This document shows, in pieces, positions 36,676 through 43,140 of a stretch of DNA of 52,267 nt. Position 1 is the first letter of the stretch. Each line of letters begins with the position of its first letter. Source of the stretch: Schwartzia sp. (in: firmicutes) (GTDB taxonomy: Bacteria; Bacillota; Negativicutes; Selenomonadales; Selenomonadaceae); contig JAFVAI010000030.1 of assembly GCA_017480545.1 (NCBI GenBank), positions 1 through 52,267 of the forward strand, written 5' to 3'. The notes under the pieces were generated by a model. The model worked only from the letters and a program-made list of their open reading frames with translations, was not told the DNA's origin and did no database searches. The position numbers and the translations under genes are program-made.

Positions 36676-38202
36676 ATGTCTGGGACTTTTACTATCGGCG
36701 AGAAGAAAATCCGTCCGGGTACGTATTTCCGCCGTGAGAACAGTGGCGGGCCTGATGTTGCCGGTGCTATCAATGGCTACGCGGCAGCGGTGTTTCAGTC
36801 GGATTGGGGGCCGTTGAACCAGCTTTTTGACATGGACGTGAGTATGCAGAATGACATCTCGGACTATTACGGGACGGACGAGCACACGCGCATCATCAAA
36901 GAGGCTTTTACTGGCGGTGCAACGACGGTGCGGGCAATCCGGTGTGGCGATGACGATGGTGAGCCGATGACCGTTACGCTGGAAATGGCGGAATCGCCCA
37001 CGGTTGAAGCCGGTGCGGGCGAAGGAGCTGCCTCCGGCGACGGTGCAGACCTTGACGCGCCGGACAGCGGAAGCTCCACCCCCGCAGCTTCGACGACGAA
37101 CGATGCCGTAAACGGTGTAGTTATTACGGCGGCTTATCCCGGCACACGTCCTTTCGCGGTCAGCGTTCGCACGAACCTGATTACGGACCAGCGCGAGTGC
37201 GTCATCTACGACGGCACGGTGATTTTTGAGAAGGTTTCCTTTGAGGCCGGAAATAACGAAGCTGCAAACCTTGTGGCTGCGATGAGCGCGTCCAAAAACT
37301 TCATCGCAAAAATTTCCGGTACGGCAACGGGCAAGCTGAAAACTGTCACGCAGGTTCCGATGGAAGGCGGCAAGAATCCGACCGTTACGACAGCTTCTTA
37401 TGACCGTGCTTTCAACGCGTTGGAGCGCGTAAAGTGGAACTGCCTCATCGTGGACACGGACGACGCGGCTGTGCATCTCTTGGTGCAGAGCTTCATTCAG
37501 CAGAGCTACGAGCAGGGTCATTTTGGTATTGGCTGTATCGCTGGTCTGCCGACGCAGGATTTCGACGAAAGGACGACGCTCGCAGCTTTGTTCAACGACG
37601 AAAAGATGGCTTACATCGTCAACGGCGGTTGGCTTGCAAGCGACGGCACTGAGTACAAGGGCTATATCGCGGCGGCTCGGATCGGCGGTATGATTGCTTC
37701 TTTCGAGACGAATTCCTCGCTGACGCACACCGTCATCAAGGGAGCCGTGAAGCTGCTTGAACCGCTGACGAACGGCGAAATGATTAAGGCAGAGAAGAAA
37801 GGCTGCATTTGCCTGTCGCTGAACGATGACGACCAAGTGTGGCTCGACAACGCCATCAACACTCTCGTAACCCCCGACGTGGATCAGGACGAAGGCTGGA
37901 AAAAGCTCCGTCGGACGAAGTGCCGCTTCGAGCTGATGGACCGCGTGAACACCACGACGGACAAGCTCGTTGGCAAGGTCAACAACGACACGGACGGGCG
38001 GCAGACGGTCATGGCGGCAGCGCAGAAAGTGCTGAACACGATGACTGGCGAGAAGAAAATCATGGATAACAGCTATATCTATGAAGACCCGGCTAATCCG
38101 GCTGAGGGCGATAACGCTTGGTACAAACTGGCGATTGATGATATCGACAGCCAAGAGCACATCTACCTCACCTATCAGTTCCGCTTTTCGCCGAACAGCT
38201 AA
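36676..38202 (+). CDS. Contractile tail sheath protein (XkdK-like)
   Basis: A 508-residue protein. The N-terminus FTIGEKKIRPGTYFRRENSG, the segment AAVFQSDWGPLNQL, and the C-terminal region with LTYQFRFSPNS fit phage tail sheath. It contains an unusual Gly/Ala/Ser/Asp-rich insertion at about residues 110-145. The sheath contracts to drive the tube through the envelope. Confidence 0.92.
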   Translation: MSGTFTIGEKKIRPGTYFRRENSGGPDVAGAINGYAAAVFQSDWGPLNQLFDMDVSMQNDISDYYGTDEHTRIIKEAFTGGATTVRAIRCGDDDGEPMTVTLEMAESPTVEAGAGEGAASGDGADLDAPDSGSSTPAASTTNDAVNGVVITAAYPGTRPFAVSVRTNLITDQRECVIYDGTVIFEKVSFEAGNNEAANLVAAMSASKNFIAKISGTATGKLKTVTQVPMEGGKNPTVTTASYDRAFNALERVKWNCLIVDTDDAAVHLLVQSFIQQSYEQGHFGIGCIAGLPTQDFDERTTLAALFNDEKMAYIVNGGWLASDGTEYKGYIAAARIGGMIASFETNSSLTHTVIKGAVKLLEPLTNGEMIKAEKKGCICLSLNDDDQVWLDNAINTLVTPDVDQDEGWKKLRRTKCRFELMDRVNTTTDKLVGKVNNDTDGRQTVMAAAQKVLNTMTGEKKIMDNSYIYEDPANPAEGDNAWYKLAIDDIDSQEHIYLTYQFRFSPNS

Positions 38203-38218: not shown

Positions 38219-38686
38219 ATGTATAATCAGAGAGGCGCGGCAGATGTTCGCCGCGTTTTCAGTGGCAAGGACGGTATGCTTTTCGACGAGGAAGGCACGC
38301 TGCTTGCGCAGGTTGAGCAATATCAGGTGCAGGTAAGTTTTACAAACGCAGATTACCAGCCACTCGGCGACCCGCAGCAGCATGAGCATCTGACGAGCTA
38401 CAAGGTAACGCTGACGGCTACGAATACGGTCATCGAGGACACAAAGTTTATTCAAGGCGTGTTTGCGGTCATGCAGTCCGGCCAACCGGCTGACGCCGAG
38501 TGGACGTTCCAAGGCGTTCTCAAAGGCAGGAACGGCAGCGAGGAGCGCATGATCTTCCGTGATTGCGTACCGAGCGGAAACGTCGATTTGCAGAACCTTG
38601 AAACGGGAAGCCTTGTGAAGCGACAGTGGAGCATGGTGGTCAACCGTCCGCCTGAACTCCAGAATTTGCTGACGGCGAACGACTGA
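38219..38686 (+). CDS. Tail tube protein (XkdM-like)
   Basis: A 155-residue protein: YTNQ-like start, YQVQVSFTNADYQPLGD, ALSGK-like end. The size and position directly after sheath fit the XkdM tube protein family. Confidence 0.88.
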   Translation: MYNQRGAADVRRVFSGKDGMLFDEEGTLLAQVEQYQVQVSFTNADYQPLGDPQQHEHLTSYKVTLTATNTVIEDTKFIQGVFAVMQSGQPADAEWTFQGVLKGRNGSEERMIFRDCVPSGNVDLQNLETGSLVKRQWSMVVNRPPELQNLLTAND

Positions 38687-38703: not shown

Positions 38704-39210
38704 GTGGAAGACACTGAAAAGAAACTCGCATTGGACCAAATGAGCGACGACATGGTTGAGGAGTACGAGGGCGACTTAATGAGCGCCCTCCTCCGTGCTT
38801 CGAGCTACAAGCAGGATGAGAGCGAGCAGCGGCGGATCAAGATTCAGAGAAACGGCGTCGTACTGCTGACATTCATTATCCGGCCTTTGGACGATGAGGA
38901 GTTCAAGACGTGCCGCGATAAGAACCTGAAAGAAAAAGCAGGAAAGTTTGGTGTACGCACGGAGAAGCTGGACCGCAAGCGTTTTCTCAACCAAGCAATC
39001 TACACGGCGACAGTGCCGGACGAAAAGACTGGCGTGAAACTATGGGATTACAACAAAGCGGAGCTGTGGCCTAAATTGAGCGTTGCTTCCGGTGTGGACG
39101 CGGTTGGCGCAATCCTGAAACCCGGCGAAAAGGAATCTATCTATGACATCATAGAGCAGATTTCCGGCTACACGGATGACGAAAAAATCACGGATGACAT
39201 AAAAAACTAA
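38704..39210 (+). CDS. Tail assembly chaperone, XkdN-like (short product)
   Basis: A 168-residue acidic helical protein from a GTG with TTGGAGGT-like upstream. IRPLDDEEFKTCRDKNLKEK and KRFLNQAIYTATVPDEKTG match the XkdN-like tail chaperone group. The stop at 39208-39210 directly follows a perfect slippery heptamer, so a longer fused product is expected. Confidence 0.88.
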   Translation: MEDTEKKLALDQMSDDMVEEYEGDLMSALLRASSYKQDESEQRRIKIQRNGVVLLTFIIRPLDDEEFKTCRDKNLKEKAGKFGVRTEKLDRKRFLNQAIYTATVPDEKTGVKLWDYNKAELWPKLSVASGVDAVGAILKPGEKESIYDIIEQISGYTDDEKITDDIKN

Positions 39211-39273
39211 TCAAGCGCGGCGGGAAGTTGTATCGTCTCCACATAATGCTGTGGAAACTGCATATCCCGCCGC
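39201..39273 (+). promoter_or_regulatory. Programmed -1 frameshift signal
   Basis: The slippery heptamer A AAA AAC (39201-39207) is in the correct reading phase and ends one codon before the stop. Nine bases later a GC-rich stem starts: GCGGCGGGA (39217-39225) pairs perfectly with TCCCGCCGC (39265-39273). Inside the loop, CCACA and TGTGG form a second small stem. This is the standard layout of a -1 frameshift with a stimulatory RNA structure. Confidence 0.85.
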
Positions 39274-39368
39274 ACGTTTTCGCGAAACTTTCCAAGATGG
39301 AACAAGCCTTTATTTGGGCGAGCATCAACGCGGAAATGGAAATTCGCAAAGAATCAGAAAACCGATAG
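39207..39368 (+). CDS. Tail assembly chaperone frameshift extension
   Basis: The -1 frame opens with LIKRGGKLYRLHIMLWKLH and continues with IPPHVFAKLSKMEQAFIWAS, ending in a TAG at 39366-39368. It has no own start site or ribosome binding site. The fusion protein would have 168 plus 53 residues, as in the G/GT-type chaperones of other tailed phages. The C-terminal pattern HVFAKLSKMEQAFIWASI looks like a genuine conserved helix. Confidence 0.8.
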   Translation, partial: LIKRGGKLYRLHIMLWKLHIPPHVFAKLSKMEQAFIWASINAEMEIRKESENR

Positions 39369-39384
39369 GAAGGAGGTAGGCGCT

Positions 39385-42300
39385 ATGGCATCGGGCGATC
39401 ACGTCATCGACATAATCATTGAAACTTCTGACCGGACGGGCGGCGGACTGAAAAGCGCTCAGGAAAAACTCTTGCGCTTCGACCAAGCTGTCCAAAGGAC
39501 ACAGGTTCGGATGCGGCAAATGGCGAATCAGACGTTTCGTGTAACTCTTGACGCTATTGACCGTGTTACGCCGCAAGGAACGAAAATCAATTCTTTCCTC
39601 CGAGGCATAACCGGACGTGCCTACCGCTTTACCGTCGGCATTATCGACAGAACGACATCTGGTATTCGTTCTCTCGAATCACGCCTTGGGCGGCTCACGG
39701 CGAAAGCCTATAACGTCACCATGAACCTTCGCGGGTCAGCAGCGAGGGGGCTTCGCAATATGGCTGACAGCGCACTCGGCGCGGCTACCGGCATGACTAT
39801 GAATATGGCTGCGGGAGCCGGGATCGGGTACGGCATTTATGACACAGTGCAGACATACAAAAACTTCGAGCAGCAAATGAGTACGGTCGGGGCAATTCGA
39901 GGTCTCGACAACAGCTCGGAGGCGATGCAAGCCTTGACTGCAAAGGCAAAAGAAATGGGCGCGACGACCGTTTTCTCGGCTACGCAAGCAGGCAAGGCAT
40001 TTGAGTATATGGCTATGGCTGGTTGGGATACCGATCAAATGATGGGTGGCATCGAAGGCATTATGAATCTTGCTGCGGCATCCGGCGAAGACCTCGGACG
40101 CGTATCGGACATTGTAACTGACGCGTTGACGGCTTTTGGCATGGAAGCGAGTGAATCAGGAAGATTCGCAGATGTGCTGGCTATGGCAGCATCAAACTCG
40201 AACACAAACGTCGGCATGATGGGCGAAACATTCCAGTATGTTGCTCCTCTCGCTGGCGCTCTGAAATATAGTATTGAGGATGTCGCACTCGCGACTGGCC
40301 TCATGGCGAATGCGGGTATCAAAGGCGAAAAAGCCGGTACTTCCCTTCGCTACACATTTACGCAACTCCTCGATCCGCCAAAAGATGCGGCAGAAGCGCT
40401 CGACAAAATGGACGTTTCTCTTAAAAATGCAGACGGTTCTATGCGGCCTTTGCGTTCGGTGCTCACTGATTTACGAGCAGGATTCGCCAAAATGACCGAC
40501 GCGGAAAAAGCTGAGAACGCGGAAAAGATTGCTGGCGTTCACGCAATGTCGGGTTTCCTCGCCATGATGAATGCGTCAGAGGAAAGCGTAAATAAAATGA
40601 CGGAAGCGGTGGACAACGCATCCGGAGCTGCCGAAAGAATGGCAAAATTGCGGCTCGATAATTTGTCCGGCGATCTCACGCTGTTGAGCAGTGCTTGGGA
40701 ATCCTTGCAACTTTCCCTCATGGAAGGCAAAGGCGCAGATGGACTGCGGGCGTTTGTGCAAGGTGTCCGGGCAGATGTCGAAAAGTTGCACGGGTACATT
40801 GAAAAAGGTTTCGGTATCAAGGAAGCCGGACAATTTGTCCTCGACATTATCGGACAGCTCACGAGGAAATTCATGGAGCTGGACGGCATTGGTTCCATAC
40901 TCGCGGGAGGCGCGTTGGCGGCAGGGCTGTATAAAATCGCAAACCTCTCGCGAAAGGCGATGGGAGCATTACGGGCAGCTGGTGAGGGACCGCTCGGAGG
41001 TGCAATGGCTCCCGGCGGCGGAATGGGTGGTTTCGGCGGTGCGCTTTCTTCCATGACTGTCAATGCCAATTCTGTCATTGTAAACGGCGGTTCCGTCGCG
41101 GGCGGATCGAAAGTTCTCATGCCTGATGGAAAGCCGTATCCGGGCAAAGGCGGGCAAGCGCCAAACACTCCTCCACAGCAGCAACCGGCTCCCGCTGGCG
41201 GTATGAATACTTGGGGCAAAGGCTGGGGAATTGGCGGTGCTGTTGTAGGCGGCGTTATAGGCTATGCGAATTACCAAAGCACCCAAGATTATAACGCTCA
41301 AATGCTCGAAGAAGCAGATTGGCGAATCCACGAAGCAAAGGAAAGCGGCGACGATACCGAATATGCAAATGCACTGGATTACAAAGCGGCAGTCGAAGCG
41401 CAGAACTTCGAGAGAGAAGTGGTCGCGAGCGGCGAAGCGATCGGCGGTGTAATTGGCGCTGGCGTTGGCGCATACCTCGGCGGACCGGCTGGAATGGCAA
41501 TCGGTGAAGCGATTGGCTCCTATGCTGGAGGTGCTTTCGGAAAGCATCTTGCTGACAGGCCGGAAGAAATGAAGCAAGAGATTCACAGCGAAGAAGGACA
41601 CATTGACGACGGCATCGGCATCCGTGCGTGGAAGAACGACGAAACAGATCGTGTATATTACGACGCTGCAACCGGCAAAATTTCAGGCGGCGCGGATTAC
41701 GTCACGATGGACATTCCACAGGAAGAACAGGCCATGTGGGAACCCATCGACGAAATGAGCGCGGAGCAAACTTCAGCGGCGTGGAATACGCTGTGGAGCG
41801 GCATGGTGGATTCGGTGCGAGAGGAGCTGCAAGCGGCACAAGCTGAACTCGATGGGTTTAAGGTTGCGACACATGACGCAGCAAAAGAATCCGCCGACGC
41901 AATGAAGTCAGACTTCATTGAACCGACAAAGGCAGCGAATACGGAAGCTGCTAGTGCAATGCGAGATGAAAACGTCAAAGCCGCAACCGATTCCATCAGT
42001 GCTTGGGACGGCTTTGCGAGCGGCGTGGTCGAGGACGCGAGAGAAAACTTGGCGGCTGTTCAAGCCGAAATGGATGGCGTGAAAGCGGCAGCGCAAGAAA
42101 CAGCCATTGAATCCGCGAATACCATGAAGTCAGACTTCATCGAACCGACAAGGGCGGCAAACACGGAGGCGGCTGCGGCGATGCGGAATGAATCTGTCGC
42201 GGCGGCAAACGAGACAAAGAGCGCGTGGAGCGGCATCGCAAGCTGGATTTCCTCGCTGTTCTCCTTTGGCGGCGGAAAGAGCGAAGCTGTCCCGCATGCG

Positions 42301-43140
42301 GCTACTGGCAAAATTTCAGGCGGCGCGGATTCCGTCACGCAGGACTTTTCGCAGGAAGAAATTGATTCTTGGGAACCCATCGACGAAATGAGCGCGGAGC
42401 AAACTTCAGCGGCGTGGAATACGCTGTGGAGCGGCATGGTGGATTCGGTGCGAGAGGAGCTGCAAGCGGCACAAGCTGAACTGGACGGCTTCAAGGCGGC
42501 GGCGCATGATGCCGCGCAAGAATCAACAGAAGCGATGAAGTCTGAGTTCATCGAGCCGACGAAAGCGGCAAATACGGAAGCCGCAGGTGCGATGCGAGAT
42601 GAAAACGTCAAAGCCGCAACCGATTCCATCAGTGCTTGGGATGGATTTGCAAGCAGCATCAGCTCGTTTTTCTCGTCTTTGTTCTCTTTTGGCGGCGGAA
42701 AAAGCGAGGCCGTCCCGCATGCGGCTGGCGGTATTTTCAGCAACGCACACCTCGGCCTCGTAGCGGAAGACGGGCCAGAGGCGATTATCCCTTTGAGCGC
42801 AAACCAACGCGGCAGGGCGCTGGACATCCTCGACAGCATCATGCCGATGCTTGGCACGGATGAAACGGATACGGGCGGCTATTCTTTCCCAACCGGCGGA
42901 ACAGCACCGGCTGTTTCCGTTTCGGAAGGTTCAGGCGGCGGTGGCGGAACGCCAGCAATCACAATTAACATCGGCGGGTTGAGCCAGACAATCACCTTGA
43001 ATGGCGAAGACGCATCCAGCGTTGACGCCATCAGGAACTATCTGACAGAGAACATGGAGCAGCTGGCAGACCAGCTCAGCGGCATGATTGGCGAAAAGGT
43101 CAACGACATTTGGAACAATCAGGCGCTTGTGACGGGATAA
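39385..43140 (+). CDS. Tape measure protein
   Basis: A 1251-residue protein. The TP901-like core (about residues 145-400: MSTVGAIRGLDNSSEAM ... ALATGLMANAGIKGEKAGTS) is followed by hydrophobic segments and a repeat-rich helical C-terminal half. The region around residues 765-1110 contains duplicated units. The tape measure sets tail length and is ejected into the cell. AAGGAGGTAGG precedes the ATG. Confidence 0.95.
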   Translation: MASGDHVIDIIIETSDRTGGGLKSAQEKLLRFDQAVQRTQVRMRQMANQTFRVTLDAIDRVTPQGTKINSFLRGITGRAYRFTVGIIDRTTSGIRSLESRLGRLTAKAYNVTMNLRGSAARGLRNMADSALGAATGMTMNMAAGAGIGYGIYDTVQTYKNFEQQMSTVGAIRGLDNSSEAMQALTAKAKEMGATTVFSATQAGKAFEYMAMAGWDTDQMMGGIEGIMNLAAASGEDLGRVSDIVTDALTAFGMEASESGRFADVLAMAASNSNTNVGMMGETFQYVAPLAGALKYSIEDVALATGLMANAGIKGEKAGTSLRYTFTQLLDPPKDAAEALDKMDVSLKNADGSMRPLRSVLTDLRAGFAKMTDAEKAENAEKIAGVHAMSGFLAMMNASEESVNKMTEAVDNASGAAERMAKLRLDNLSGDLTLLSSAWESLQLSLMEGKGADGLRAFVQGVRADVEKLHGYIEKGFGIKEAGQFVLDIIGQLTRKFMELDGIGSILAGGALAAGLYKIANLSRKAMGALRAAGEGPLGGAMAPGGGMGGFGGALSSMTVNANSVIVNGGSVAGGSKVLMPDGKPYPGKGGQAPNTPPQQQPAPAGGMNTWGKGWGIGGAVVGGVIGYANYQSTQDYNAQMLEEADWRIHEAKESGDDTEYANALDYKAAVEAQNFEREVVASGEAIGGVIGAGVGAYLGGPAGMAIGEAIGSYAGGAFGKHLADRPEEMKQEIHSEEGHIDDGIGIRAWKNDETDRVYYDAATGKISGGADYVTMDIPQEEQAMWEPIDEMSAEQTSAAWNTLWSGMVDSVREELQAAQAELDGFKVATHDAAKESADAMKSDFIEPTKAANTEAASAMRDENVKAATDSISAWDGFASGVVEDARENLAAVQAEMDGVKAAAQETAIESANTMKSDFIEPTRAANTEAAAAMRNESVAAANETKSAWSGIASWISSLFSFGGGKSEAVPHAATGKISGGADSVTQDFSQEEIDSWEPIDEMSAEQTSAAWNTLWSGMVDSVREELQAAQAELDGFKAAAHDAAQESTEAMKSEFIEPTKAANTEAAGAMRDENVKAATDSISAWDGFASSISSFFSSLFSFGGGKSEAVPHAAGGIFSNAHLGLVAEDGPEAIIPLSANQRGRALDILDSIMPMLGTDETDTGGYSFPTGGTAPAVSVSEGSGGGGGTPAITINIGGLSQTITLNGEDASSVDAIRNYLTENMEQLADQLSGMIGEKVNDIWNNQALVTG
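41668..42730 (+). repeat. Internal 633-bp in-frame duplication in the tape measure gene
   Basis: A 113-bp block (41737-41849) is identical to 42370-42482, and a 50-bp block (41959-42008) is identical to 42592-42641; both pairs are exactly 633 bp (211 codons) apart. The motif GKISGGAD recurs at the same spacing. Within one unit are further related segments (KSDFIEPTKAANTEA), so there are three related helices in all. Confidence 0.88.

Follow-up and report, generated by a model that had tools for sequence, protein, structure and literature searches.

Introduction

A -1 shift in tail chaperone genes is widely conserved among long-tailed phages (PMC5009743). For phage lambda, this review draws on Levin 1993 and Xu 2004, 2013 and 2014 and describes a tape measure protein that is bound by gpG along with a minor share of gpGT, whose T part binds the tail tube subunit. 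For P2 E/E' the review cites Christie 2002 and gives P2-type frameshifting an efficiency 2-3 times higher than that of lambda. For a cluster of HK97-like chaperone frameshifts, an efficiency of 6-7% was measured (PMC3711429).

Here we describe a locus in a 52,267-nucleotide stretch of DNA (hereafter, the window), where the module around 38704-39210 appears to belong to a contractile-tail (PBSX/XkdN-type) prophage integrated in a bacterial genome. The window shares with lambda gpG/gpGT a chaperone gene between the tube and tape measure genes, a slippery heptamer near its 3' end, a -1 extension and the expectation that most product would be unshifted. It differs from lambda in that its tail is contractile, A AAA AAC sits in the final codons and abuts the stop, a stable stem-loop lies downstream and the 53-residue T part has no Pfam family. 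With P2 E/E' it has in common a contractile tail and a -1 shift, putative in the window, in the chaperone gene that precedes tape measure. Programmed -1 frameshifting of the lambda G/GT type at 39201-39207 is very probably the best explanation of the sequence. Its kind is already known from lambda and many other tailed phages, and the window locus is a clear new example.

Results

The genes of the tail module were assigned with Pfam, with which PHROGs was concordant, and run along the window in the order sheath, tube, chaperone and tape measure:

36676-38202, forward strand: contractile tail sheath protein, XkdK-like (PF04984, E 2.1e-16; phrog_279, E 5.3e-80)
38219-38686, forward strand: tail tube protein, XkdM-like, DUF2001 (PF09393, E 4.5e-7; phrog_365)
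38704-39210, forward strand: tail assembly chaperone, XkdN-like, 'G', 168 amino acids, GTG start (PF08890; phrog_389, E 8.6e-22)
39385-43140, forward strand: tape measure protein (PF10145, E 1.5e-57; phrog_1533)

The chaperone gene therefore occupies the place between the tube (PF09393) and tape measure (PF10145) genes that is typical of G/GT-type systems. The ribosome-binding site GGAAGGAGG, at about 39369-39378, precedes the tape measure start. Relatives of the tape measure protein come from gut and rumen records of Ruminococcus, Lachnospiraceae and Oscillospiraceae. The tape measure gene also carries a near-identical internal repeat in the region 41700-42700 of the window, with EPIDEMSAEQTSAAWNTLWSGMVDSVREELQAAQAELDGFK present twice, which is perhaps a length-changing duplication.

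The 168-residue protein matched PF08890 (Phage_TAC_5, XkdN-like) with 52.6 bits (E 5.8e-14), above the curated cut-off of 27. A PDB sequence search with the chaperone gave no meaningful relatives, so that fold comparison was needed. We modelled it with AlphaFold2 from an alignment with 48 relatives (pLDDT 89), and the best fold match of the model was Bacillus subtilis YqbN (3KLU; Z 9.1, rmsd 4.8 over 115 residues), followed by HK97 gp13 (2OB9; Z 7.1, rmsd 5.2 over 102 residues) and RBSTP2171 (3FGX; Z 6.8), with all remaining matches at Z of 3.8 or less. These three proteins are phage tail assembly chaperones (PMC9603447), and the modelled fold is that predicted for a chaperone of this class. 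XkdN and YqbN, from the B. subtilis PBSX and skin prophages, also have PF08890 in common with the window protein, and B. subtilis was the only control genome matched in a PF08890 search. HK97 gp13 has an equal role by position, but no sequence similarity to the window chaperone was detectable in the PDB search and the HK97 tail is non-contractile. PF08890, phrog_389 and the predicted fold, similar to YqbN and HK97 gp13, thus bear out the PBSX-type tail chaperone proposed in the initial annotation.

The 3' end of the chaperone gene and the sequence beyond it contain the following elements:

39201-39207, forward strand: slippery heptamer A AAA AAC, in phase (from sequence; identical in 87 of 93 distinct loci)
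39208-39210, forward strand: zero-frame stop TAA, adjoining the heptamer (from sequence)
39207-39368, forward strand: -1 frame extension 'T', adding 53 residues past the slip and ending in TAG (from translation, profile match and model)
39217-39225, forward strand: left arm of a 9-bp downstream stem, after a 9-nt spacer (from folding)
39238-39255, forward strand: inner 6-bp hairpin, pairing 39238-39243 with 39250-39255 (from folding)
39265-39273, forward strand: right arm of the 9-bp downstream stem (from folding)

In the chaperone frame the end reads ATA AAA AAC TAA. The heptamer is in phase, as had been noted before, whereas the single codon said to separate it from the stop is not there: TAA follows directly. 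Heptamers of the form X XXY YYZ at an equal distance from the stop occur in 7 of the 703 mechanical open reading frames of at least 40 amino acids in the window, so that by itself the heptamer would be a coincidence of about 1%; its conservation among relatives removes a chance origin. We observed no clear excess of an upstream Shine-Dalgarno stimulator (mean duplex energy -3.5 versus a background of -3.1). In E. coli, A AAA AAG slips better than A AAA AAC (PMC5009743), for which reason a strong stem would be useful here.

We gathered relatives through the chaperone and not through the heptamer, so the slippery site was not selected for. A protein search of the window's genome family yielded 10 loci, its own included, and PF08890 matched in 70 of 380 genomes across the class; 80 loci from these protein and PF08890 searches were read, loci from viral contigs and other genomes were added, and collapsing identical -1 products left 93 distinct loci including the window. 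These whole-genome searches succeeded where the window's own chaperone, used as query against genome and viral collections, found no relatives; an alignment of diverse chaperones was too variable for scanning the collections. In 92 of the 93 loci a slippery heptamer lay in phase at the stop or close to it, and the -1 frame was open and homologous. The heptamer was A AAA AAC in 87 of them, A AAA AAG in 2, and A AAA AAA, A AAU UUA and G GGU UUA in 1 each, and the heptamer started 7 nt from the stop in 76 loci, 10 nt from it in 15 and 31 nt from it in one. Absence of the heptamer from close relatives, which the initial annotation had named as evidence against a frameshift, is thus not what we found. 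At loci L118/L121 and L011, G GGU UUA or A AAU UUA replaces the usual heptamer at the same position. Where A AAA AAG, A AAU UUA or G GGU UUA has taken over, predicted slippability is preserved and sequence is not, and exchanges between heptamers sharing only this property would be difficult to account for without selection for slippage. One lineage, represented in two separate assemblies by L009 and its viral near-twin L117, is without the heptamer: its junction (L009:1900-1940) reads ATC CGA AAA TGA, the homologous -1 frame is kept and an ATG overlaps the stop (ATGA). This junction may work by stop-start coupling or by a single-codon slip. Across these loci, the putative signal is near-invariant and family-wide in XkdN chaperones from many bacterial genera.

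Folding of the RNA 3' of the heptamer in the window gave -31.3 kcal/mol (z -5.97), and 0 of 200 dinucleotide shuffles folded equally well. The GC-rich 9-bp stem reported earlier as lying nine bases on is present, with further base pairs below the inner hairpin, which had been given as 5 bp and is one pair longer. A 9-nt spacer is at the long end of the usual range for -1 sites. We surveyed the 70 nt beginning 3 nt after the heptamer in 77 loci, with five stretches from the same loci as controls. Mean z was -2.70 downstream, with 66% of loci below -2, compared with -0.56 to +0.08 and 5-14% in the controls (Wilcoxon p about 1e-10 or lower; the loci are related and not independent, so these p-values are too small, while the effect is large). 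A stem of at least 5 bp first appeared most commonly 7-8 nt after the heptamer (28 of 77 loci), and relatives such as L006 have a stem in the same place as the window's in a different register. The evidence from relatives is therefore a recurring structure, not compensatory pairs. We conclude that a downstream RNA structure, common though not universal at G/GT-type sites, is predicted here, with a putative stimulatory role.

These observations also bear on whether the fusion might arise during transcription, by RNA polymerase slipping on the A6 run to give transcripts with an altered number of A residues. Frames are known to be fused in this way (the title subject of PMC5009743) and the junction does contain six A, but exactly six A followed by C are found in 87 of 93 loci and seven A in only one, and A AAU UUA and G GGU UUA break the homopolymer yet keep tandem tRNA re-pairing. 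A structure that recurs about 7-9 nt downstream is in keeping with a stalled ribosome, and we regard polymerase slippage as extremely improbable.

No stop interrupts the -1 frame between 39201 and the TAG at 39366-39368, where the frame reaches the ribosome-binding site of the tape measure gene. Its translation, LIKRGGKLYRLHIMLWKLHIPPHVFAKLSKMEQAFIWASINAEMEIRKESENR, has the 53 residues claimed in the initial annotation and would extend the chaperone to a predicted fusion of 221 amino acids. A profile of the -1 products of the other loci, trimmed of their first two codons and made without the window, matched the window's -1 frame with E 4.5e-16, the sole match among 1113 window open reading frames. 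In nine independent close pairs from separate groups, substitutions beyond the zero-frame stop were distributed 92:60:191 over -1 codon positions 1:2:3 (chi-square p 2e-18); L006 and L114, the closest pair in the window's group, differ by 8, 6 and 26 substitutions at these positions. Codon-level conservation of the -1 frame, which had been suggested as a check, is thus found by both measures, and on such sequence comparisons the frame is under coding constraint. The window accordingly has the open, conserved -1 frame toward the tape measure gene that marks G/GT-type systems. K1 and P23 are invariant in the -1 alignment. The model of the -1 part has three helices (pLDDT 86.5), and a PDB fold search with this part alone gave nothing informative (best Z 4.7, mixed matches, 25 chains compared).

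Among eight isolated phages, seven have the A AAA AAC site: phiC2, MismyG, phiOH2, AQ113, Jimmer1, Abouo and Lj771. Their records contain no joined gene here, the -1 part being missing or annotated as a shorter open reading frame; in Jimmer1 and Abouo a short open reading frame just 3' of the chaperone is a separate hypothetical gene. Upstream of its AAAAAAC run, Streptococcus phage EJ-1 (L085, NC_005294.1) has one base more than MismyG. The chaperone and the -1 part are thereby fused in a single annotated ORF55, which is a fusion of natural origin or else the result of a sequencing slip. The EJ-1 arrangement, with both parts in one open frame, is what would be expected if the window carried a sequencing error or a decayed gene, a single frame broken by an indel. 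However, the equal frame relation recurs in nearly all of the 93 distinct loci, whose sources are separate genomes, viral contigs and isolated phages. This excludes an assembly error, and the -1 frame shows coding constraint; the probability of a broken frame is practically negligible.

The separate annotation in Jimmer1 and Abouo would agree instead with a small independent gene in the -1 frame, coupled to the chaperone stop and translated from its own start without any frameshift. Candidate starts exist at TTG 39228 and ATG 39246, the latter followed in frame by ATG 39297 and 39336, and the ATGA junction of the heptamer-less L009/L117 would suit stop-start coupling. None of these codons has a convincing Shine-Dalgarno sequence at the usual spacing, and TTG 39228 lies within the stem-loop. 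Conservation of the -1 frame begins at the heptamer itself (K-K-L-I-x-x-G), upstream of every start in the window, and a separate gene would leave the conservation of the heptamer without a reason. The earlier statement that the frame has no start of its own is thus wrong as to the presence of TTG and ATG codons and right in that they are without a convincing Shine-Dalgarno and the conserved part begins upstream of them. A separately initiated gene seems very unlikely, and programmed -1 frameshifting the better account.

In a 66-member alignment (A1) the -1 products matched seven function-less PHROGs (20560, 2722, 10943, 5646, 4503, 33439 and 28231), each matched by 10 to 20 of the 66, and no meaningful Pfam family match was found for them. 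In PBSX-type regions xkzB lies near xkdO (PMC9406221), and it may be a candidate counterpart of the -1 part. In the part of the literature that was searched, the phage paper naming XkdN has the word frameshift only in the title of a cited reference, and we claim no priority.

Discussion

All the G/GT features that can be read from sequence are found in the window. The signal, its conservation, the -1 coding constraint, the recurrent structure, the chaperone family and the modelled fold are directly supported, and from them we infer the occurrence of slippage, its efficiency and the roles of G and G-T. Most ribosomes would terminate at TAA and release the 168-residue chaperone G. The stem-loop would delay a minority of them, which would then shift by -1 at A AAA AAC, the Lys and Asn tRNAs re-pairing with AAA AAA, and would add the 53 residues that make the 221-residue G-T fusion. 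If the lambda gpG/gpGT system is a guide, the tape measure protein would carry many bound copies of G and few of G-T, whose T part would bring in tail tube subunits, the tube protein encoded at 38219-38686 being the expected partner of the -1 domain. With few G-T among many G, and T recruiting the tube, the ratio of G to G-T would matter for tail assembly. A G/GT-type system would further make the fusion at a low and fixed ratio and leave both products out of the virion.

The locus adds one more well-supported frameshift site. In practical terms, groups of proteins that lack annotation become candidates for the T part of a tail chaperone: PHROGs 20560, 2722, 10943, 5646, 4503, 33439 and 28231 are proposable as T parts of XkdN chaperones. 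It is conceivable, if rather doubtful, that the mode of expression can change within one chaperone family, being a tandem-slippery -1 shift in nearly all members, an ATGA junction in L009/L117 and one frame in EJ-1. If this is true, some contractile-tail phages would be able to do without a G to G-T ratio fixed by tandem-slippery frameshifting, or to replace it.
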